A model generated the notes under the pieces. That model searched no databases. It was not told the DNA's origin and saw only the letters and a list, made by a program, of their open reading frames with translations. The translations under genes and the position numbers were made by a program. A stretch of 36,629 bases of DNA from a virus. Each line of letters starts with the position of its first letter. The first letter of the stretch is position 1. The stretch spans positions 1 to 36,629 of IMG/VR virus record IMGVR_UViG_3300017748_003686; one strand, 5' to 3'. Of this stretch, positions 8,747 through 31,377 are shown in pieces.

Positions 8747-8775
8747 ATTATAATAATTTTTTATGATATATCAAA
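8747..8775 (-). promoter_or_regulatory. Promoter-like element TTTGAT-17-TATAAT
   Basis: On the minus strand TTTGAT (8775-8770), 17 bases, TATAAT (8752-8747), about 20 bases before the SIS gene start. One base differs from the recurrent TTGGAT box. The upstream hexamer lies inside the end of the cyclase gene. Confidence 0.6.
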
Positions 8776-9768
8776 CCATTCTATAATATATTCTTTTATA
8801 TCACTATATTCAACTTCTTCTAAAAACATATCTCCTGGTCCTTTTGTTAATACACAATTTAATTTATTACTAATATTTTTTTTGTCTTTTTTTAGAGCAA
8901 TAATTAATTGTTCTATGTTAATATCAGATAATTCAATATCATGATATATACTATTCAACGTTGTTTGTATTCTCTTAAATAATTCATATGTTATATATCT
9001 TTTTTTATATGAAATAAAATTAGCTATATCCATTCCAATTGATACTGCAATTCCATGTGCAATTTTATTATTTGTAACTGATTCAATTGCATGTCCAAAA
9101 GTGTGGCCGTAATTTAATATTAATCGTTCTTTTTTATCAAATTCATCTATTTCTACATATGTTCGTTTAATATCTAAACATCTTGTAGTTAACTTTTTTA
9201 AGTCATGCTGATTTTTTAAAAAGAAATTATAATCAGCGTTACTAGATACTAAAAAGAAATGTAACATTTCTCCTAATCCAGATTTAATATCTGTTTCTGA
9301 TAAGGTATCTAAAAAATTATTACACACAATAATTTTAGAAGGAGGATAAAAATTTCCCAGCTGGTTTTTATATGTATTAAAATTAATTGATGTTTTGCCT
9401 CCAATACAACTATCTCCTTGTGCTAACAATGTAGTAGGATAGAATACCCAATTAACTCCTCGAAATAATATTGAAGAAATAAATCCTACGACATCTTGGG
9501 TAATTCCTCCGCCAACAGCTATTAACTTATTTTTTTTATTAAATCTTCCAATAATTGAATTTAATATTGTAGATATATTATTAAAATCCTTTGTTTGTTC
9601 TGTTACATTATATAATTGTATACATTCATATTTATCTAATTCAAATTTATATACCATAGTATCACATATAATAATATCTCCTTCATTATATATTCGATCG
9701 ATTGATTCAATAAAATTATTACTAAAGTCTACCGTATAAGTTCCTGTTGATGAATTAATTTTAATCAT
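8761..9768 (-). CDS. Dehydroquinate-synthase-family sugar phosphate cyclase
   Basis: 335 residues, close to AroB length. NAD-binding GGGITQDVVGF at 87-96, PTTLLAQGDSCIGGKTSIN at 111-129, KNQLGNFYPP at 134-143 and NYGHTFGHAIES at 219-230 are all family hallmarks, keeping the metal ligands E167 and H222/H226. In AroB the motif GxxEvxK supplies a catalytic lysine; here it reads GLGEMLH, so that lysine is His170. This suggests a substrate other than DAHP, as in cyclases that make valiolone- or scyllo-inosose-type cyclitols. It overlaps the aminotransferase gene by 8 bases, so the product may be a keto-cyclitol that is then aminated. A true AroB role is possible but unlikely in this context. Confidence 0.8.
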   Translation of the reverse strand: MIKINSSTGTYTVDFSNNFIESIDRIYNEGDIIICDTMVYKFELDKYECIQLYNVTEQTKDFNNISTILNSIIGRFNKKNKLIAVGGGITQDVVGFISSILFRGVNWVFYPTTLLAQGDSCIGGKTSINFNTYKNQLGNFYPPSKIIVCNNFLDTLSETDIKSGLGEMLHFFLVSSNADYNFFLKNQHDLKKLTTRCLDIKRTYVEIDEFDKKERLILNYGHTFGHAIESVTNNKIAHGIAVSIGMDIANFISYKKRYITYELFKRIQTTLNSIYHDIELSDINIEQLIIALKKDKKNISNKLNCVLTKGPGDMFLEEVEYSDIKEYIIEWFDIS

Positions 9769-10891
9769 TATATTTCTTTATAAAATTATTAAGTTGTTCT
9801 ACTATATATGTACGTTCACTATTTGTAATTCCGTTATACATAGGTAAACATAGATTAGTATCAATTGCGATTTGTGCAGATTTAAATTTATCATTATGAT
9901 TTAATGAGTTTATTTTAGTATTTATATTTTGATTACTACACATATAACTGTATATAGATGGTGGTAATTCAATATTAGCATCTTTTAGATAATTATATAA
10001 TTTTTGTTTTAAATTTTTATTTACAAAAATAACATACTTATAATATGAATTCTTGCAAGAAGTATTTAATTTTTTAAAATTCTTATTAAATTGAATATTT
10101 TGATCATAATATTTAGCCAATTCACGTCTTTCAGAAATAATTCTATCTGCTTTATTAATATGTAATAATGCAATTGCTGCTGTTATTTCTGACATTTTAT
10201 AATTATTTCCTATTTCAAATACTTCCCAATTATTAATATTTCTATCTAATCCTATTGATCGCATTCTTCTTAATCTAGAAGCCCATTTGGAATTATTTGT
10301 ATTTATAAATCCTCCTTCACCGGAAGTAAGTACTTTAGAATGATGAAATGAAAATGTAGATATATCGCCAATTGAGCCAGCTTTATTATTGTTAATAATA
10401 GATCCATGTGCGCATGCTGCATCTTCAATTAAAATAATATTATGATCAGAACAATATTTTTTTATCTCAAAAATTTCGTCTGTAATATAACCTCCTACAT
10501 GTACTAATATTATAACTTTAGTATCAAGTGTTATTTTTTCTTTTATACTTTTTAAACTTAATGATAATGTATTTTGATCAATGTCAGCATATATTATTTT
10601 TCCACCTGCATTATGTACTGATAATGGAGTTGCAAAAAATGTATATGTTGGAACAATAACTGATTTATTTGTTACATCTAGGACACGCAATGCTAATTCT
10701 AATGCTGTTGTACAACTATTAACTGCAATTGCTTCTTTAGTTCCTACATAATTAGCCCATTTAGATTCTACAAGATTTATATACTTTCCTCCGTCAGTAA
10801 GATAACCTGATTTTAATATATCAGTGATTTGATTATTTACAAATTTAATATCTTCTGTAGAATATGGTAATATATATTTTTTAATTTTCAT
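9761..10891 (-). CDS. DegT/DnrJ/EryC1/StrS family PLP aminotransferase
   Basis: 376 residues, the usual length. VNSCTTALELAL at 58-69 is the cofactor phosphate loop, LIEDAACAHGS at about 154-164 holds the PLP-pyridine aspartate D157, and FSFHHSKVLTSGEGGF at 180-195 holds the Schiff-base lysine K186. These enzymes move an amino group to keto-sugars or keto-cyclitols, usually from glutamate or glutamine, in the cytoplasm. Placed between a cytidylyltransferase and a cyclase with overlapping ends, it most likely aminates the product of this same pathway. A PLP-type dehydratase, as in some family members, is excluded by the presence of the lysine. Confidence 0.88.
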   Translation of the reverse strand: MKIKKYILPYSTEDIKFVNNQITDILKSGYLTDGGKYINLVESKWANYVGTKEAIAVNSCTTALELALRVLDVTNKSVIVPTYTFFATPLSVHNAGGKIIYADIDQNTLSLSLKSIKEKITLDTKVIILVHVGGYITDEIFEIKKYCSDHNIILIEDAACAHGSIINNNKAGSIGDISTFSFHHSKVLTSGEGGFINTNNSKWASRLRRMRSIGLDRNINNWEVFEIGNNYKMSEITAAIALLHINKADRIISERRELAKYYDQNIQFNKNFKKLNTSCKNSYYKYVIFVNKNLKQKLYNYLKDANIELPPSIYSYMCSNQNINTKINSLNHNDKFKSAQIAIDTNLCLPMYNGITNSERTYIVEQLNNFIKKYND

Positions 10892-11534
10892 TAATTATTA
10901 CTTCTGCTAATTTAAAGTCAATTAAATTATCTATATCTAAACATTCAGCTGGATCTACGTTATATGTAATATGATTTTTTGTTACACGACTTTTTTCTTG
11001 TTTAAATGAACGTACATTAAATATATAAAATCCAGCTTCACAATATATTGGTTCTTCAAATTGAGTGCCTTTTAATACTAACGGATTATGTGAAACAGGC
11101 TGATTATTATACCAAAATCTATTTTCAATAGGATATAATGATAATACTGAAGAGTGATTTGTATCTAACATTAATTGTATAGCACTTTCAATAGTATTAG
11201 ATTTTAAAAATGGTTGTGTCACAAATATTTGAACAAATATATCAGAATCATTAACTTTAATATTATCTATTTCAAAATTAATTAAGTCATGACCAGATAT
11301 ATTATTTTTATTTAAATCTATTGGTCTTTTTAATGTATTAAATTTATATTTTTTTGCAATTTTTAAAATTGTTTCATCTGATGAATCAATCCATATTTCG
11401 TCTATATTTGTTACAGTTTGTATTGTAGTAAATATATAATCATATAATGGTTTATTACCTAAGATTTTAGTATTTTTACCAGGTAATCTTTGATTATTTG
11501 TTTTTATAGGAATAACTGCTATTACTTTTGTCAT
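10881..11534 (-). CDS. Cytidylyltransferase, CMP-acylneuraminate synthetase-like
   Basis: 217 residues. The N-terminal IAVIPIKTNNQRLPGKNTKILGNKPL is the nucleotide-binding signature of NeuA/KdsB-type enzymes with the second glycine run altered. IWIDSSDETI and FVQIFVTQPFLKSNTIESAI follow in the family order. CEAGFYIFNV and the Asp of NVDPAECLDIDN match the C-terminal metal and dimer region. It would make a CMP-activated sugar acid or related sugar from CTP. The start overlaps the WaaE-like gene by 4 bases (ATGA). Together with the aminotransferase and cyclase it forms the donor-making core of the island; the actual sugar is unknown. Confidence 0.78.
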   Translation of the reverse strand: MTKVIAVIPIKTNNQRLPGKNTKILGNKPLYDYIFTTIQTVTNIDEIWIDSSDETILKIAKKYKFNTLKRPIDLNKNNISGHDLINFEIDNIKVNDSDIFVQIFVTQPFLKSNTIESAIQLMLDTNHSSVLSLYPIENRFWYNNQPVSHNPLVLKGTQFEEPIYCEAGFYIFNVRSFKQEKSRVTKNHITYNVDPAECLDIDNLIDFKLAEVIINEN

Positions 11535-20385: not shown

Positions 20386-21636
20386 TTAAAATTTAAAAAA
20401 TTTATTGAATTGATTTGCATCAGTAGTTGATATACTATCACCACCAAACTTTTTATATGTTTTCTTATATGTTGCATAAACTTTCATTGCACTGTCTGGA
20501 TCATCAAACATATCGTGTAATGATAATATGACGTCATATAAGTCTTTTGGAATTGCTGTTTCTAACAACTCAACATGATTATTTACTAGTTTGCTAACAT
20601 CTTTTGCTATATCAACATATAGATGCGTATTATGTATAACCATTCTAGGCATACCCTCTTGGCTATATCTATCTAAGCCTTTATCTGTTTTACCACCTAA
20701 ATAATCATATGTAAAATCTTTACATGCAGGACAATCTAAACTACATGGAACGTGTCTTGAAGTATCAATTCCAACTGTTTTATTAGCTCTATTTGCATGA
20801 GATTTTCTTCTATATTCATTGTTCTTTGGAAAATATAATTCTGTAAATGTTTGAGTCTTATAATTTCCAGAATGAAGATATGTTCCAAATACCGGATATT
20901 GTCCTGGTGAGCTAGAATCCGTTGAAAATAATACTCTATTATTAGTTAATTTATTAATTAGTTTTTGCAATGTTGCTAATATAAAAAAATCTGATATTTT
21001 TGATATACCTAATAAATGTATATATTTAACATGTTCTTTTTCAAATTCTCTTTCTTGTAACATTAATGCTATAACATACATAAAGTCGACTAATTTTTTA
21101 GGACCTCCAATACACCACCCGTTAAATGCAAAGTCTTTAAATTTATGATACCATTCTGCATATTCTTCTGTATATGTTCCTTGTATAACATTTAAAAAAT
21201 CTGTCTTGCCTGTTTGTTTAGATTCAAACCATTTAAAATTATCAAAACTAATATCCATTGATTCTGCGAATCTATTTTCATATTTAGCTCTGGGAGGAAT
21301 ATCTAAATTTGCAGCTACATCTGAATTATGTTCTAACCACTCAAATATTCTTTCACGAATAGTGCTATCCCATTTTAAAGCTCCGGTTGCTATTTGGAAT
21401 CCTCCTGAATCTCCAAATACTAATACCTCATCGTCTAGTCCCAGTTGATCACGAAAATCCATCTTTTTAAAATGATGTCCTGCAGTTATAAGAAAGTATG
21501 GATGTCTCCATTCTTCAGGATACTCTTTAGAAAAGAATCTACAAGTAGTTCCATCTTGAAATTTCATATTCTTCTTGAAAGCAGATACCATACTACCAGC
21601 AGATAATGATGGGTAATATATAAAGTTCTTATCCAT
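20386..21636 (-). CDS. TGT/DpdA-like 7-deazaguanine transglycosylase
   Basis: 416 residues, longer than bacterial Tgt. GDSGGFQIATG at 75-85 holds the general Asp (D76) of the TGT fold; DFLNVIQGT and FNGWCIGGPKK match the substrate-binding VQGG and IGGL loops; LFSTDSSSPG holds D240 at the nucleophile position. CSLDCPAC (C298, C302, C305) and H335 form the TGT zinc site. The enzyme swaps a guanine for a 7-deazaguanine base. Phage FolE, QueD and QueE in this window point to preQ0 or a relative as the base and to DNA as the target (DpdA type); a tRNA target remains possible. It is coupled by a one-base TAATG overlap to the 59-aa gene before it. Confidence 0.75.
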   Translation of the reverse strand: MDKNFIYYPSLSAGSMVSAFKKNMKFQDGTTCRFFSKEYPEEWRHPYFLITAGHHFKKMDFRDQLGLDDEVLVFGDSGGFQIATGALKWDSTIRERIFEWLEHNSDVAANLDIPPRAKYENRFAESMDISFDNFKWFESKQTGKTDFLNVIQGTYTEEYAEWYHKFKDFAFNGWCIGGPKKLVDFMYVIALMLQEREFEKEHVKYIHLLGISKISDFFILATLQKLINKLTNNRVLFSTDSSSPGQYPVFGTYLHSGNYKTQTFTELYFPKNNEYRRKSHANRANKTVGIDTSRHVPCSLDCPACKDFTYDYLGGKTDKGLDRYSQEGMPRMVIHNTHLYVDIAKDVSKLVNNHVELLETAIPKDLYDVILSLHDMFDDPDSAMKVYATYKKTYKKFGGDSISTTDANQFNKFFKF

Positions 21637-21815
21637 TAATCAATTACTTCCCATGATGAATCTCCCAATTGATCAAATTTTGAGAATATAAATGTTACTA
21701 TTTCTGCAGTTTGCTTATCTAAGTGTCCTTTTTCATCTAGTTGTTTTGCTAGAGTTTGAAAAGGAGTCTCTATGGTCATTCTTATTTCTTCTAACCCTTG
21801 TCTATTTATTTTCAT
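21636..21815 (-). CDS. Unknown small protein (59 aa) in the transglycosylase unit
   Basis: 59 residues, starting MKINRQGLEEIRMTIETPF and ending GDSSWEVID; helical, acidic, no cysteine. It begins inside the end of the GT4 gene (ATGA overlap) and ends one base into the transglycosylase start (TAATG), filling the only gap between them. The perfect fit on both sides shows it is a real gene. No family is recognised; a small partner or subunit of the transglycosylase is a guess. Confidence 0.75.
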   Translation of the reverse strand: MKINRQGLEEIRMTIETPFQTLAKQLDEKGHLDKQTAEIVTFIFSKFDQLGDSSWEVID

Positions 21816-22990
21816 TTTTCTTCCTCTTTTTTATTTAATAAACTTTTACAATATTCAGCTTCGTGCCAAATATTAATTTCTTGATTAATTCCATTTGCTA
21901 CAATATATCCTTCCATTTGTCTGCCTAAATCAGATATATCTACTATTTCATTATGTCTATTAGGAAACAACATAATATCACTGAATGTATTCAATGCAGA
22001 TCGTACATCAAATGGTTTATACATTCTTTCTTCGTCTATAAATTCTGGAAATGATCTAAATTTAGGATATACAATATCTGCTCCAAATGCAGTAGCTTCA
22101 ATAACAGTCCATGATACATAATCTTGTAATGCAGAATTGAATTGTATACTACATGTAGCTAATTCTGTATAATATTCTTCTTTTGTTAATCCTTCTAATA
22201 ATATAAATCTAGGTTCTTCTTTTGCTAATGATCTTAATTTATCAATAACGCCTGGTAACATTGATCTAAACTCTTTACCTGATGTAGTTACGTGCCATTC
22301 CCAATCTGTATGTTGTTGTAAAAATTCTTTTGCTACTTCCATCATAAAAAATGGATTTTTTTCTTTATCTAATCTACTAGAATAAACAACAAATGGTTTT
22401 CTTTGTGCTCCTGGATCATAGCTTGGTAATTTATCTAATGTCTTTTGCTTATGAATTGGCAATGAAACAACATGTATTGGTGCTTCAAATCCAGCTGCTC
22501 TTAATTGTTCTTTATGAATACTAGATCCTACAAATATACCAGACATTCTTTTATCTAAACCCAATTCAAAACCTCTCATCCATGTTCTCATTGGATATGT
22601 AAAATCATATTCATCTACACTTTGAGCATGGAGCATTGCATATATTTCTAATTTAATACCATATAAATCTGCAGCATATAAAATAGATCCAATACCAGGA
22701 TGCCAATAGTCTTGTAAAAATATAACATCTCCATCTCTAACTTCATCACGATTCATCATATCTAAAAAGTTGCTACATTGACTCATAGCAAATTTACCTC
22801 TACCTACTGCGTCTAATACAGCTCCAATTTTAATTTGTTGATCTGGATCAAAATCTCCTTCTACATCAATAAATTCTAATTTACCAGAATCAACATAAGG
22901 TTGAAATGTTGCTGGCATCCATTCTTTTGATAATTGATATGTATATCTAGCCTTTAACGGCTCTAATCCAAAATAAAATACTTTCTTCAT
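21812..22990 (-). CDS. GT4-like (GT-B) glycosyltransferase next to the transglycosylase
   Basis: 392 residues. The N-terminal half (VFYFGLEPLKARYTYQL, GDVIFLQDYWHPGI, AMLHAQSVDEYDF) and the C-terminal half (FVVYSSRLDKEKNPFFMMEVAKEF, FILLEGLTKEEYYTELATCSIQFNSALQDYVSWTVIEATAFGADIVYP) form a GT-B fold with the GT4 donor site around VIEATAFGA. It is unlike the GT4 pair of the sugar island. Its gene ends in an ATGA overlap with the 59-aa gene, which in turn overlaps the transglycosylase, so a role in modifying the inserted deazaguanine or phage DNA is plausible inference. The donor is unknown. Confidence 0.78.
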   Translation of the reverse strand: MKKVFYFGLEPLKARYTYQLSKEWMPATFQPYVDSGKLEFIDVEGDFDPDQQIKIGAVLDAVGRGKFAMSQCSNFLDMMNRDEVRDGDVIFLQDYWHPGIGSILYAADLYGIKLEIYAMLHAQSVDEYDFTYPMRTWMRGFELGLDKRMSGIFVGSSIHKEQLRAAGFEAPIHVVSLPIHKQKTLDKLPSYDPGAQRKPFVVYSSRLDKEKNPFFMMEVAKEFLQQHTDWEWHVTTSGKEFRSMLPGVIDKLRSLAKEEPRFILLEGLTKEEYYTELATCSIQFNSALQDYVSWTVIEATAFGADIVYPKFRSFPEFIDEERMYKPFDVRSALNTFSDIMLFPNRHNEIVDISDLGRQMEGYIVANGINQEINIWHEAEYCKSLLNKKEEEK

Positions 22991-22991
22991 G

Positions 22992-23339
22992 TTAATAACC
23001 TAATTCTACTATTGCTCCATTCTCCCAATCTTCCCAAACTTCTACTTTATATAAATTACTATTTTGCTCCATAATCCAGGCACCAATATCTTCACAACTC
23101 ATTCTACCAAATTCTAATATATTACCACCAAAATTAGTTCTTAATTGTTTTTTTAATTTTCTTTGCATTAAAATAAATTCTTCATCTCTATCTGTATGTG
23201 TTACTTTTGCATAACATCGAAATCCAAACATATGTCGATGTCTGTCAGACAAAAATCCAACTTCTGGAAATATTTCTTTAGCTTCTGGCCAACAATGAAA
23301 TCCTTCCATACTAAATGATACTACTACTGAATACTTCAT
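22992..23339 (-). CDS. Divergent QueD/PTPS-fold (T-fold) protein
   Basis: 115 residues, close to QueD length. VVVSFSMEGFHCW (H15) and LSDRHRHMFGFRCYAKV (H34, H36) reproduce the three zinc histidines of 6-pyruvoyl-tetrahydropterin synthase-like proteins, and MSCEDIGAWIMEQ...VEVWEDWENGA matches the family's 'PT.E..A..i......v.v.Et' block with E103. The catalytic cysteine normally found ahead of the HGH motif is not clear. A regular QueD is encoded at 30252-30716, so this is a second, divergent T-fold gene. Its position in the transglycosylase unit, overlapping the gene before it by 4 bases, suggests it works on a deazaguanine or pterin-like substrate there. Confidence 0.6.
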   Translation of the reverse strand: MKYSVVVSFSMEGFHCWPEAKEIFPEVGFLSDRHRHMFGFRCYAKVTHTDRDEEFILMQRKLKKQLRTNFGGNILEFGRMSCEDIGAWIMEQNSNLYKVEVWEDWENGAIVELGY

Positions 23340-23788
23340 ATTTCTTCGTCAAATTTATAGTTATCTGGTTGTATTTCCATCATATTACATTTTGTTACTT
23401 GATGAACTCTATACCAACCTGCATCGATTGATAATGTATCGGTATCTTTAAGCATTTCTAAATATGGATCTGAAATCCTATATATAATATGACATCTATT
23501 AAATAAATCTGGTTTAATTGTGTCTAACGTGTCTTTAGTAGCTTCTATAGTTACAGCACAATTTGATTCATCTAATATACGCCTTATACTTTCTAGATAT
23601 TTTTCGTCTTTCATAGACTTTTTCATGAATTCAATTGTAAAATAATAATGAGGATATTCATTAAAATTTTCTACTTCTAAACCATAAGTTTTTTTAATAT
23701 TATGATTTAAATCTCTTACAAAGAAAGTCATAAGATCTGAATAACGACCTTCAACTTCTCTACCTTTCCATTGATGCTTACCGTACAT
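23336..23788 (-). CDS. Unknown protein (150 aa), first gene of the transglycosylase unit
   Basis: 150 residues; MYGKHQWKGREVEGRYSDL at the start, a central HYYFTIEFMKKSMKDEKYLESIRRIL and a beta-rich end with YRISDPYLEMLKD. No known motif and no membrane segment. The alternating strand-helix pattern and modest size fit a small alpha/beta protein. It follows the promoter-like element at 23800-23828 and overlaps the T-fold gene by 4 bases. No function can be given. Confidence 0.7.
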   Translation of the reverse strand: MYGKHQWKGREVEGRYSDLMTFFVRDLNHNIKKTYGLEVENFNEYPHYYFTIEFMKKSMKDEKYLESIRRILDESNCAVTIEATKDTLDTIKPDLFNRCHIIYRISDPYLEMLKDTDTLSIDAGWYRVHQVTKCNMMEIQPDNYKFDEEI

Positions 23789-23799
23789 ATTTTTTATTT

Positions 23800-23828
23800 A
23801 TTATAATTAATTTTATTGAATTATCCAA
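23800..23828 (-). promoter_or_regulatory. Promoter-like element TTGGAT-17-TATAAT
   Basis: Minus strand TTGGAT (23828-23823), 17 bases, TATAAT (23805-23800). The upstream box overlaps the last codons and stop of the polymerase gene. It would start the transcript for the unknown, T-fold, GT4, 59-aa and transglycosylase genes and the clamp genes after them. Confidence 0.68.
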
Positions 23829-26582: not shown

Positions 26583-27617
26583 TTATAATATAAGTAATTC
26601 TTTTTGTTTTTCCAATACTGGAAGAATAGCTAACTCTTTTGCCTTAGCTTCTACTACTATATCTAAATTATCAACATCATATGTATTAGGAGTATCTAAA
26701 ATATAGTCAGCATGAGCTTGCTCTTTTATCTTTGAGAATTCTTTTTTGAACTTAGCAAATGTCGGCCATGTATCAATTTCTTCCCAACTAATACCATGTT
26801 TACTACATACTTCATTTAGGAACGATTTTTTCTCATTTCGTCTAGATTCAGAATAATGAGTGCATTGAGTAATACCATGTTTCTCCCACGTTTCACGAGC
26901 CATAAAGAATGCCTCACGTTCAGATAAATCGCCTGTACAGAAGGTGTGATGCCAATAGTCAAATGTAATAGGAATATCAATTTCACGGTGTATAAGCTCG
27001 TATAGATGCCTTACACTGTACATAGATGCCTTGTCGTCATTCTCTAGAACTAATCTAGATTTACAAGCATCAGAAAGTCGTTGCCATGACTTGATCCATC
27101 GCTTAGCAGTAGCTTCACGATCACCATATGCACCAGCTACATGTATATTGATCTTATTTTCAAATGATGGTGTATATCCCATTAGATCAAACATCTGCGA
27201 ATGACGTTCTAATCCAATAATACTTTTTTCTACCACATCTTGTCTAGGCGAACCTAAGACGTGAAATGGTCCAGGATGGGTAGTGAGACGATGACCATGC
27301 TCTCTAGCATATTCTCCACATTCAAATAATTTTTGTGAAATTTTGTCATAGTCAGGGAGATCATGTAATTCATAATGATCATGCCATGGGAAGAGTTCTG
27401 ATCCAACTCTGAATAATGTGATTCCATGTTCTTCATTCCATTTAAGATAAGTTAATAAATCAGTTGCATTATCTAATGCTTTATCACTGATAAGTTGTAA
27501 ATTGTGTGGATACCAACTAGCTTTTCTAGCTGTCCTACTAGTAGTAACTCTACCACCGAGTTTTTTAGGTCTATTAGTTAATGTCGCATTGACACAGGCA
27601 TAACCGTATCTAATCAT
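26583..27617 (-). CDS. uvdE: UV damage endonuclease, UvdE family
   Basis: 344 residues. The TIM-barrel UVDE pattern runs through the whole protein: RYGYACVN at the start, FRVGSELFPWHDHYEL, HRLTTHPGPFHVL, INIHVAGAYGDREATAKRW, LVLENDDKASMY, ITFDYWHHTFC and THYSESR, which supply the His, Glu and Asp metal ligands. It nicks DNA 5' of UV photoproducts, starting repair without a glycosylase. It is rarer in phages than the T4 DenV glycosylase and suits a sunlit marine setting. It follows the promoter-like element at 27629-27657. Confidence 0.93.
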   Translation of the reverse strand: MIRYGYACVNATLTNRPKKLGGRVTTSRTARKASWYPHNLQLISDKALDNATDLLTYLKWNEEHGITLFRVGSELFPWHDHYELHDLPDYDKISQKLFECGEYAREHGHRLTTHPGPFHVLGSPRQDVVEKSIIGLERHSQMFDLMGYTPSFENKINIHVAGAYGDREATAKRWIKSWQRLSDACKSRLVLENDDKASMYSVRHLYELIHREIDIPITFDYWHHTFCTGDLSEREAFFMARETWEKHGITQCTHYSESRRNEKKSFLNEVCSKHGISWEEIDTWPTFAKFKKEFSKIKEQAHADYILDTPNTYDVDNLDIVVEAKAKELAILPVLEKQKELLIL

Positions 27618-29264: not shown

Positions 29265-29402
29265 CTATCCTTTTATGTTTTCTAAGATTTCTCTTAATTT
29301 ATAAATTAACAATTCTACTTCATCCGGATCCATTGTTATTGCACAACAGGTATGGACATTTTCTTCTATTTCTTGTAATATTTCTAGAGCTTCGTCTATC
29401 AT
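29265..29402 (-). CDS. Unknown very small protein (45 aa)
   Basis: 45 residues, MIDEALEILQEIEENVHTCC then a DPDEVELLIYKLREILENIKG helix; acidic with a CC pair in the middle. It starts inside the queE stop (ATGA overlap) and ends just before groES, filling the gap. The helix-turn-helix hairpin look and tight fit support a real gene; no family is recognised. Confidence 0.6.
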   Translation of the reverse strand: MIDEALEILQEIEENVHTCCAITMDPDEVELLIYKLREILENIKG

Positions 29403-30262
29403 ACTCCTCGTTCAGTATCATATGCTATTATATGATCTCTCCCGGTCATATTATATCCTTTTTCTGCTACCATTTCAAATACTAATGGATACATTTTGAC
29501 TAGTTGTTCTCTAGTATCTCCAGCTGGCATAACAAATGTCTTTTCTTTTGGAATATCCATTTCAACTCTAAATGCCTCAATTTCTTCTAGATTTTCATCA
29601 GTACCATTCCATACTGGCTTAAAATGATAATCTTTATGATAATCTATTGTTTTTCTAATAGCATCCTTATTTAGTCTAAGTCTATTATGTACTTTAACCA
29701 TTCGTTCGTCGGCGATAGCCCCATTAGGTGTAACAGCACCAAGTACAGGCACACTATTAGAAAATTTAGGACTAAGACTAATAAGATCCAAAGGATAGTC
29801 TGTTTCAAGAAAGTGAGAACCTTCTGTTTCAATTGTAACCAAAATGTTTCTTTCATTTGCAAAATGTGTTATTTCATTTACTAAAGCAGGATGCATTGTA
29901 GGTGAGCCGCCTGTTAACATCATTTCCTTTACTTGCGGATTTTCATCATACATTTTAATAATATCATTAAAAGTAAATGTACCTTTTTCTGGGTGTATAC
30001 TTGTATACCAAGAATCACACCAACCGCCTTCTCCAAAATAACATCTATGGGTGCAACCGGTAGTTCTAACTGCAATGGTAGGTCTACCAAATCTAGATCC
30101 TTCTGATTGTACACACCTATAAACTTCTAAAACAGGAAGTACTTTATTATAATCTTCAATTCTTTTTAATTTGTTTACTAGTTTACGATCAGAAGATCCA
30201 ATTTCACGCTGATAAACTGTTTTGCCTCCATTGGGAGATTCATATATTAAATCATTCTCCAT
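29399..30262 (-). CDS. queE: 7-carboxy-7-deazaguanine synthase (QueE), radical SAM
   Basis: 287 residues from the ATG at 30262; an in-frame ATG seven codons upstream (30283) is the alternative, and both lie within the end of queD. CVQSEGSRFGRPTIAVRTTGC opens the QueE fold. The SAM cluster cysteines read CTHRC-YFGEGGW-C, giving CX3C with an extra five residues before the third Cys instead of CX3CX2C. MLTGGSPTMHP is the radical SAM GGE-like loop, and TIETEGS follows. It turns 6-carboxy-tetrahydropterin into CDG, the third step towards preQ0. It overlaps queD and is followed by the 45-aa gene. Confidence 0.9.
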   Translation of the reverse strand: MENDLIYESPNGGKTVYQREIGSSDRKLVNKLKRIEDYNKVLPVLEVYRCVQSEGSRFGRPTIAVRTTGCTHRCYFGEGGWCDSWYTSIHPEKGTFTFNDIIKMYDENPQVKEMMLTGGSPTMHPALVNEITHFANERNILVTIETEGSHFLETDYPLDLISLSPKFSNSVPVLGAVTPNGAIADERMVKVHNRLRLNKDAIRKTIDYHKDYHFKPVWNGTDENLEEIEAFRVEMDIPKEKTFVMPAGDTREQLVKMYPLVFEMVAEKGYNMTGRDHIIAYDTERGV

Positions 30263-30716
30263 AATATGCTGCATTTTTACCATGTTCCATAAACTTAACT
30301 TTAGTAACTCTTACTCTTCCTTCTGTTTCTTGATGTACAAAATTATTTAATTTACTGTAAATATATTCTGCAAATTTCTCTGCTCCAGTTGCTGGTATGA
30401 TTCTTAATTGAATTACACCTTCATAGTCTAATTGTCTAAATTGTGGAAGTTGCGGATCATCCTCTGCCAAGATTACTGTGTGATCAAACATATAATCCAT
30501 CCACTGTTTTGGAGCCATGTGATCTATCTTAGTAGATGCTCTTTTCATTCCTCCAAAATCCCATACCCAATTTCTATGATCTAGTTCTCCTTCAAAATAC
30601 ACTTTAAAAGATATACCATACCCATGTAAAAACCTACAGTGTGTTTCTTCAGCTTTCCATTGACGAAACACTGTACTAAATCCGTCAAACACTTTACTTG
30701 ATTGAAATTTACCCAT
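30252..30716 (-). CDS. queD: 6-carboxy-tetrahydropterin synthase (QueD)
   Basis: 154 residues. ETHCRFLHGYGISFKVYFEG carries the Cys and the HGY/H zinc-site pattern of QueD, WVWDFGGMK the D-F-G block, FDHTVILAEDDP the DH.vil..dDP signature and ATGAEKFAEYIYSKL...KVKFMEHGKNAAYY the C-terminal 'T.E..A..i' and E-H block. It makes 6-carboxy-5,6,7,8-tetrahydropterin from dihydroneopterin triphosphate. It overlaps folE by 8 bases and queE by 11, forming one translated set. Confidence 0.92.
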   Translation of the reverse strand: MGKFQSSKVFDGFSTVFRQWKAEETHCRFLHGYGISFKVYFEGELDHRNWVWDFGGMKRASTKIDHMAPKQWMDYMFDHTVILAEDDPQLPQFRQLDYEGVIQLRIIPATGAEKFAEYIYSKLNNFVHQETEGRVRVTKVKFMEHGKNAAYYGE

Positions 30717-31377
30717 GATTATAACCTTTTACAAATTCATAAAATTCAGCTCTTGTTGAAGTATCATCCTTAAATGCTCCAGTAAGCTTACTTGTTTTCA
30801 TTGATGCTCCACCATGTTTAACTCCTCTACATGAAACACAATTATGAGTAGCATCTATCATTACTGCTACTCCATTATTATCATTAATAATAGTATTAAT
30901 TGAATTATGAATTGCAACTGTTAATTGTTCTTGTATTGCACCTCTTCTACCAAAATGTTCTACTAATCTATTCAATTTTGATAATCCAATAACTTTACTG
31001 TCTTTACCTGGAATATAAGCTACATGAACTTTACCCATGATAGTTTGATGATGATGTGAACACATTGAAGTTAATGGAATACCACCTTCAAATACCATAC
31101 CGTCATATCCATCTGATGGAAATGCTGTAATATTAGGAGCTCCGTTGTATCTTCCAGCCCATAAGTCATTTACATATGCTTTTGCTACTCTCCTAGGAGT
31201 ATCATTTGAATTAGGATCATTTCTCCAATCACATTTTAAAGCATCTAAAAATTCTCCAAAATGTCTAGCTGCTCGTTCTATCATTATTTCTTTTGCTTCA
31301 GGACTTAACGGATTTTCTGAAGCGACCCCATTTGCAAATCCTTTTTTTACTAACTCAATACTTTTTTTAGTCGTCAT
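30709..31377 (-). CDS. folE: GTP cyclohydrolase I (FolE)
   Basis: 222 residues, full length. TSMCSHHHQTIMGKVHVAYIPGK contains the zinc Cys106 and His109; THNCVSCRGVKHGGA contains the third zinc ligand C180 and the C-terminal substrate loop; GLSKLNRLVEHFGRRGAIQEQLT is the FolE signature. It opens GTP to dihydroneopterin triphosphate, the start of the 7-deazaguanine and folate pathways. With queD and queE beside it, the 7-deazaguanine route is the likely use. It starts 11 bases inside the end of the preceding unknown gene. Confidence 0.96.
   Translation of the reverse strand: MTTKKSIELVKKGFANGVASENPLSPEAKEIMIERAARHFGEFLDALKCDWRNDPNSNDTPRRVAKAYVNDLWAGRYNGAPNITAFPSDGYDGMVFEGGIPLTSMCSHHHQTIMGKVHVAYIPGKDSKVIGLSKLNRLVEHFGRRGAIQEQLTVAIHNSINTIINDNNGVAVMIDATHNCVSCRGVKHGGASMKTSKLTGAFKDDTSTRAEFYEFVKGYNHG

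Follow-up and report, generated by a model that had tools for sequence, protein, structure and literature searches.

Phage DNA modification systems built on DpdA, such as those giving dG+ in phage 9g and dPreQ0 in phage CAjan, encode FolE, QueD, and QueE together with an enzyme of the transglycosylase (TGT) fold (Hutinet 2019, PMC6884629). The words "glycosyl" and "sugar" are both absent from the text of that report. The same set of genes is found in the virus record IMGVR_UViG_3300017748_003686 (36,629 bases), the whole of which is referred to here as the window. Its TGT-like gene is the last of a run of five genes at positions 20386-23788, named g1 (a 150-amino-acid protein), g2 (a T-fold protein related to QueD), g3 (a GT4 glycosyltransferase, GT), g4 (a 59-amino-acid protein), and g5 (the TGT). 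Compared with the 9g and CAjan systems, no QueC, Gat-QueC, QueF, or ArcS was seen in the window, and a GT and a T-fold protein are added. The catalytic Asp positions of 9g DpdA align with those of g5, but 9g DpdA belongs to phrog_887, whereas g5 falls in another subgroup with a weak match to phrog_10773 (E 0.001).

The Cellulophaga phage phiST resembles the window in carrying FolE, QueD, QueE, a g2 homolog, and a small TGT-like protein and in lacking QueC, but it has no GT of the window family. This phage reportedly has dDG-type DNA, and a dDG/dCDG pathway is said to include a predicted 7-carboxy-7-deazaguanine (CDG) decarboxylase, DpdL. The DpdA2 proteins of Vibrio phages nt-1 and KVP40 and of Stenotrophomonas phages form a further type, to which the TGTs of X1, ACP17, and BUCT-ZZ01 belong (30-37% identity to the ACP17 query); nt-1 and Ps15 pair DpdA2 with QueC, and both are without g2 and the GT.

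Known deazaguanine bases of DNA bear small groups, namely cyano, amidino, aminomethyl and its derivatives, carboxyl, or hydrogen. In tRNA, QTMAN and QTGAL glycosylate queuosine (Q) on its cyclopentenediol, and QTMAN is GT4-like. Both place a sugar on a 7-deazaguanine-type nucleoside, as proposed here, but the window has no Q-specific genes. The alpha- and beta-glucosyltransferases of T4 are phage GTs that decorate a modified DNA base, a likeness that we infer; their GT families and base (hydroxymethylcytosine) differ, and no sequence relation was shown. No report of a glycosylated deazaguanine in DNA was found in the literature searched, although an earlier description may exist. A 2021 jumbo-phage survey (PMC7824862) describes a deazaguanine system in PA5oct, with no GT linked to it in the passages found. 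Here, we propose, with somewhat better than even confidence, that the five-gene run provides the final insertion and tailoring steps of a pathway that modifies DNA with 7-deazaguanine, in which the GT would add a sugar to the CDG or 7-deazaguanine base inserted by a DpdA-like enzyme; the DNA target is presumed, and the sugar and its attachment point are conjectural.

Association of the GT with the T-fold protein and the TGT

Viral contigs were scanned with g3 and g2, which returned 139 loci. Most of them showed the order g1-g2-g3-(g4)-g5-clamp, with FolE-QueD-QueE upstream where the contig was long enough. The core of a g2-like T-fold protein, GT4, and TGT was found together with FolE, QueD, and QueE in phages of Pseudomonas, Xanthomonas, Acidovorax, Synechococcus, and Sinorhizobium. 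Among cultured phages, GT homologs lie inside FolE/QueD/QueE/TGT clusters in BUCT-ZZ01, X1, ACP17, and PA5oct, and the deazaguanine clusters of PA5oct relatives and of Phosso also carry one. The GT and TGT genes of PA5oct overlap by one base; in Phosso, the GT overlaps g2 by four bases beside FolE and QueE, and the TGT is elsewhere in the genome. A search from the X1 GT matched deazaguanine-cluster phages only. In the Synechococcus phage BUCT-ZZ01, two GT4s flank the TGT-g2 pair; the second, dissimilar GT4 (L002:5010-6353) is directly upstream of DpdA and perhaps adds a second sugar.

In addition, loci were sampled with the TGT only, which avoids selection for the GT. With clustering at 70% identity and flanks of at least 3 kb on both sides, a GT of type I (that of g3) or type II was present in 16 of 20 clusters and g2 in 13 of 20, and 3 of 20 had neither. 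At 90% clustering, the GT was present in 26 of 30. The loss of g2 in one set of records (group B) had been considered as evidence against a role for g2, but this was overturned by the one large record of that group (G014, 127 kb), in which g2 lies about 35 kb away (E 4e-33). At least 575 relatives were found in the TGT profile scan, mostly in environmental viromes.

The GT slot between g2 and the TGT is swappable. Type I occupies it in most loci, and a type II GT lies between the same conserved g2 and TGT in L117, L125, L138, L148, and others. The type II GTs shared 23-25% identity with g3 and 36-42% with their counterparts in PA5oct, Phosso, and ACP17, thereby indicating that one deazaguanine-associated GT type was exchanged for another in the same slot. 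At loci without the GT, the genes beside the TGT are other tailoring enzymes. In L280:4182-6589, which has no such GT, the TGT overlaps an S-adenosylmethionine-dependent methyltransferase (PF13489, E 4e-13), and a phosphoribosyltransferase comes next; this locus may make a methylated deazaguanine variant. L286:4366-7215 has QueC and a class-V aminotransferase, rather than the GT, joined to a TGT belonging to the same family, and in L283:818-3779, the TGT occurs with QueC and an aminotransferase-like protein (judged by eye); these two loci possibly represent a further deazaguanine variant. Phosphoribosyltransferases adjoin the TGT in L277 and L280, and by eye, a hypoxanthine-guanine phosphoribosyltransferase-like gene is near the cluster in L062 and L125. 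Such genes would fit salvage of the guanine released by exchange.

Phages of the phiST type, which lack the GT, carry a gene of 259 to 303 amino acids after g2 (L005:8801-9580, L152:8308-9219, L150:8695-9552, L154:8396-9220, and L155:8417-9289). The copy of phage Roos matches the queuine TGT family phrog_887 (E 2e-18), and that of phiST aligns at the TGT motifs; these proteins are probably small DpdA-like proteins.

The GT was also used to scan GTDB species genomes, in which only six loci were found. Four of them, which have g1 or g2 close by, look viral or borne on metagenome-assembled genomes. In the other two, from Shimia ponticola and Sulfitobacter sp. M05, a type II GT is joined directly to a 508-amino-acid TGT-like protein that shares 25% identity with g5 across 208 residues (E 2e-15), and the GT-TGT pair occurs again in L307, another genome of the same order. 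The next gene upstream in Shimia matches PF02592, the family of the queuosine-precursor transporter YhhQ/Vut_1, just under the cut-off (E 3e-5), and Sulfitobacter has a look-alike judged by eye. The trait is rare, with a full match in 2 of 391 sampled genomes, and these loci are a possible deazaguanine glycosylation island. Downstream of the GT-TGT pair, Shimia (L304:7498-12324) and Sulfitobacter M05 (L303:6086-10990) share a gene of 585 to 592 amino acids without assigned function, and integrase-like genes are nearby in Shimia.

An initial annotation of the window had suggested that the five genes travel together. This holds for the GT4, the T-fold protein, and the TGT, whose association is kept across unrelated phages and bacteria rather than dissolving in relatives, but the 59-amino-acid gene is missing from most relatives and the 150-amino-acid gene is confined to this lineage. 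Altogether, a functional link among the GT4, the T-fold protein, and the TGT is strongly supported.

CDG synthesis and the proteins of the run

In the window and its relatives, FolE-QueD-QueE is located 6-8 kb upstream of the run on the same strand. From their conserved domains and residues, the three window proteins are predicted to form the route from guanosine triphosphate (GTP) to CDG. QueC was absent from nine viral records of this family and from BUCT-ZZ01 and phiST, and the pathway is therefore expected to stop at CDG. In a set of 18 phage records, 12 carried g2, and 11 of these had no above-cut-off QueC (X1 showed one sub-threshold QueC-like match), whereas all 6 without g2 carried QueC. 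The Fisher p value for g2 versus QueC was 4e-4, which is indicative, as the records are not random and some are related. This pattern suggests that g2 takes the place of QueC after CDG. In the same set, the GT was present only with g2 (5 of 12), PhiXhv-15 aside. The comparison with sugar-bearing queuosine made in the initial annotation is consequently loose, since without QueC there would be no preQ1 or cyclopentenediol handle. Likewise, g2, first seen as a second T-fold protein of a further branch, fits better within the main CDG pathway, because it replaces QueC and occurs in phiST without a GT.

The g2 protein matches phrog_17812, a family of unknown function. Against a QueD profile, it gave an hhalign probability of 82-85% (E ~1e-5), compared with <1% for unrelated profiles of the same genomes, and its best PDB match was PH0634 (2dj6, E 0.066). 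It is probably a distant QueD, a member of the T-fold/QueD superfamily. In the aligned g2 proteins, the His triad H15/H34/H36 is invariant, as are H48, C82-E83, and E103-D104, and the catalytic Cys of QueD (in the C-x3-H segment by the zinc His residues) is absent from all of them; g2 would therefore be a T-fold protein with other chemistry. The phiST homolog, CGPG_00067, is 39% identical to g2 with the invariant residues in common, and may be the protein named DpdL. A fusion that places g2 at the C terminus of an unknown domain occurs in Chryseobacterium phage MA9V-3 and Vibrio phage Bakedbeans (L151:7452-8333 and L153:7221-8372).

In a Pfam scan, g3 matched the GT4 C-domain models PF13692 (E 2e-4) and PF00534 only, and no QTMAN-specific domain was listed. 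A direct sequence search gave no PDB match for g3. Its predicted structure (predicted local distance difference test score, pLDDT, of 83) aligned over about 300 residues with GT4 enzymes including BshA, PimA, and SenB at Z 19-21.6 (BshA: Z 21.6, root mean square deviation 4.0, 311 aligned; PimA: Z 21.0, root mean square deviation 4.0, 309 aligned). The model thus confirms g3 as a predicted GT-B fold, GT4-type enzyme. The donor-site residues R206, E210, K211, and E298 are invariant in the aligned family; the donor motif is a complete E-x7-E in the type II and X1 GTs and D-x7-E in type I. A family signature, E-x4-RYT, HA-x-S-x-D-x2-D, and R-x3-EK-x-P, occurs with few exceptions in the GTs of type I, type II, X1, and the bacteria. 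The GT of Xanthomonas phage PhiXhv-15 was rejected as a family member: it lies outside any deazaguanine cluster, the genes around it include other sugar genes and no g2, and the first part of the signature (E-x4-RYT) is absent from it. The two GT4s of a separate sugar island in the window had been described as unlike g3, and the BLASTP comparison agreed (best E 4.9). That island (8761-11534) encodes a 3-dehydroquinate-synthase-like enzyme, a DegT aminotransferase, and a cytidylyltransferase, which suggests an unusual cyclitol or amino-sugar product.

The g5 protein keeps the TGT motifs D76-SGG, Q152-G153, H207-x-LG, and D240. D76 (in GDSGG) and D240 are conserved in all aligned members and align to 9g DpdA and to the DpdA2 of nt-1. 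A g5 profile matched the DpdA2-type group (hhalign probability 96.9, E 1.9e-10), nt-1 DpdA2 was not found by tblastn with the g5 protein, and a direct sequence search gave no PDB match. These features point to a DpdA-like TGT that retains the general-acid and nucleophilic Asp positions. By eye, a protein like a UvdE-type UV endonuclease is encoded at 26583-27617 of the window, between PhoH-like and PolB genes.

The g1, g2, and g4 proteins showed no significant match in the Pfam scan. Throughout this marine phage lineage, g1 is kept 5' of the GT and TGT, and it was not detected in the cultured phages compared. Its AlphaFold model (pLDDT 84) had no confident PDB match (best Z 5.4). A degenerate QueE was considered for g1 from a weak structural match (6nhl, Z 5.3) and was ruled out by profile comparison (probability 0.4%). 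For g4, no match was found. It is limited to the closest relatives and is absent at most loci, where the GT is directly adjacent to the TGT or overlaps it (-20 to +14 bases); g4 is accessory.

The five open reading frames are at the places and of the lengths first annotated (Table 1), and the tight junctions are as described: overlaps of four bases (g1/g2), four bases (g3/g4), and one base (g4/g5), and a gap of one base (g2/g3). A sliding-clamp gene begins 11 bases past g5, and the run is therefore unbounded at its 3' end. The FolE, QueD, and QueE genes of the window also overlap each other. Because close spacing is general in this genome, tightness by itself says little. The single promoter element proposed before the run, TATAATAAATA, has a similar AT-rich counterpart at the same place 5' of g1 in relatives, but in the window it is no commoner than chance (11 matches with at most one mismatch versus 14.1 expected). 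Tightness and the element were dropped as stand-alone evidence.

Table 1. Positions of the run and of the CDG synthesis genes in the window
Feature	Positions	Strand	Remarks
Promoter-like AT-rich element TATAATAAATA	23795-23805	-	Upstream of g1
g1	23336-23788	-	150 aa; unknown fold and function; first gene of the run
g2	22992-23339	-	115 aa; QueD-related T-fold protein, phrog_17812; candidate DpdL-type CDG-processing enzyme
g3	21812-22990	-	392 aa; GT4-family GT-B glycosyltransferase, type I of the deazaguanine-associated GT family
g4	21636-21815	-	59 aa; unknown, accessory
g5	20386-21636	-	416 aa; DpdA-like guanine/deazaguanine transglycosylase, TGT fold
FolE	30709-31377	-	GTP cyclohydrolase I, first step to CDG; PF01227, E 3e-46
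QueD	30252-30716	-	6-Carboxytetrahydropterin synthase, second step; HC-x3-HGY, H26/C27/H31 invariant in aligned QueDs; phiST orthologue annotated QueD-like
QueE	29399-30283	-	CDG synthase, radical SAM, third step; PF04055, E 1e-6; C77/C81/C89 invariant; phiST orthologue 62% identical, annotated QueE-like

Proposed reaction and alternative explanations

In the proposed pathway, FolE, QueD, and QueE would convert GTP to CDG, and g2, a QueD-derived T-fold enzyme replacing QueC, would process CDG, most likely by decarboxylation to 7-deazaguanine. The g5 enzyme would then exchange guanine in phage DNA for the deazaguanine base, and g3 would glycosylate the deazaguanine with a nucleotide sugar as donor, acting on the base in DNA or shortly before it is inserted. 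The bulky sugar-bearing base should block host nucleases.

Several observations weigh against this proposal. Most of the records are fragments from metagenomes, and related phages do not count as independent samples. The phiST-type phages have g2 and the small TGT-like protein and no GT, and the sugar would thus be optional. The score of g5 against the TGT model PF01702 (E 2e-5, 24.2 bits) was below the Pfam cut-off of 26.3; this model misses even 9g DpdA and was not used to infer the absence of a phage DpdA. The GT is acidic (pI 5.2), which is unexpected for a DNA binder, and for this reason it may act on the free base or nucleotide before insertion. Finally, decarboxylation of CDG by g2 would leave C7 without an ordinary hydroxyl or amine handle, and the attachment chemistry would be unusual; the sugar would therefore be placed on the CDG carboxylate, on C7 itself, or on N2. 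Because QueC and QueF are absent and g2 probably leaves CDG or bare 7-deazaguanine, we tentatively consider, while thinking it rather doubtful, that the GT forms a glycosyl ester on the C7 carboxylate or a C-glycoside at the nucleophilic C7, with the E-x4-RYT/HA-x-S-x-D-x2-D family common to the phages and the bacterial island. To our knowledge, no DNA base with either linkage has been described.

The alternative that survives best, although unlikely, is that the DNA base is unglycosylated (dDG or dCDG) and that the GT is a passenger with an unrelated role, for example in cell-surface or virion glycosylation. The GT-less phiST-like phages, the acidity of the GT, and the presence of a separate sugar island with two other GT4s in the window are consistent with such a role. 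However, the GT is directly joined to the TGT or g2 repeatedly, in several phage groups and in bacteria, it is swapped for another deazaguanine-associated GT type, and the sugar-island GT4s are unrelated to it.

The remaining alternatives are less likely than glycosylation of a deazaguanine base. The GT might glycosylate a pterin, as does the cyanobacterial tetrahydrobiopterin glucosyltransferase BGluT, with FolE and the PTPS-like g2 feeding the pterin. FolE and two T-fold proteins are indeed present in the window, and BGluT (5ze7 and 9v0l) was among the structural matches to the g3 model at Z ~19, but it ranked with, not above, many unrelated GT4s. The presence of QueE, the joining of the GT to the TGT even in bacteria with no FolE nearby in the island, and the replacement of the GT beside the TGT by other tailoring enzymes make a pterin acceptor highly unlikely. 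We give a still slimmer chance to tRNA as the target, with the TGT modifying host or phage tRNA and the GT making a Q-like glycosylated base. Glycosylated queuosine of vertebrate tRNA is a known precedent, and the bacterial island has a queuosine-precursor-transporter-like gene; against this, g5 groups with phage DpdA2-type proteins and its gene sits among DNA polymerase, clamp, and clamp-loader genes, no tRNA gene was found in the window, and no Q-specific step past CDG was seen. The slimmest chance of all is that the GT glycosylates a pyrimidine (hydroxymethyl-C or -U), with deazaguanine as an independent second modification, as the glucosylated hydroxymethylcytosine of T4 and a thymidylate-synthase-family gene in PA5oct and the L125 record might suggest, but such a gene is absent from most GT-bearing records, including L019, L043, BUCT-ZZ01, X1, and ACP17, which argues against a hydroxymethylpyrimidine acceptor. 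A Tet/JBP search gave no match, but its control was silent too, and the result is not usable as absence.

If the proposed glycosylation of a deazaguanine base is true, the modification would combine sugar decoration with deazaguanine exchange, the two big strategies of phages, and restriction enzymes and CRISPR nucleases would encounter a bulky modification of guanine. Cultured phages of the linked family include Paride, PA5oct, ACP17, X1, and BUCT-ZZ01, and the prediction is therefore directly testable.

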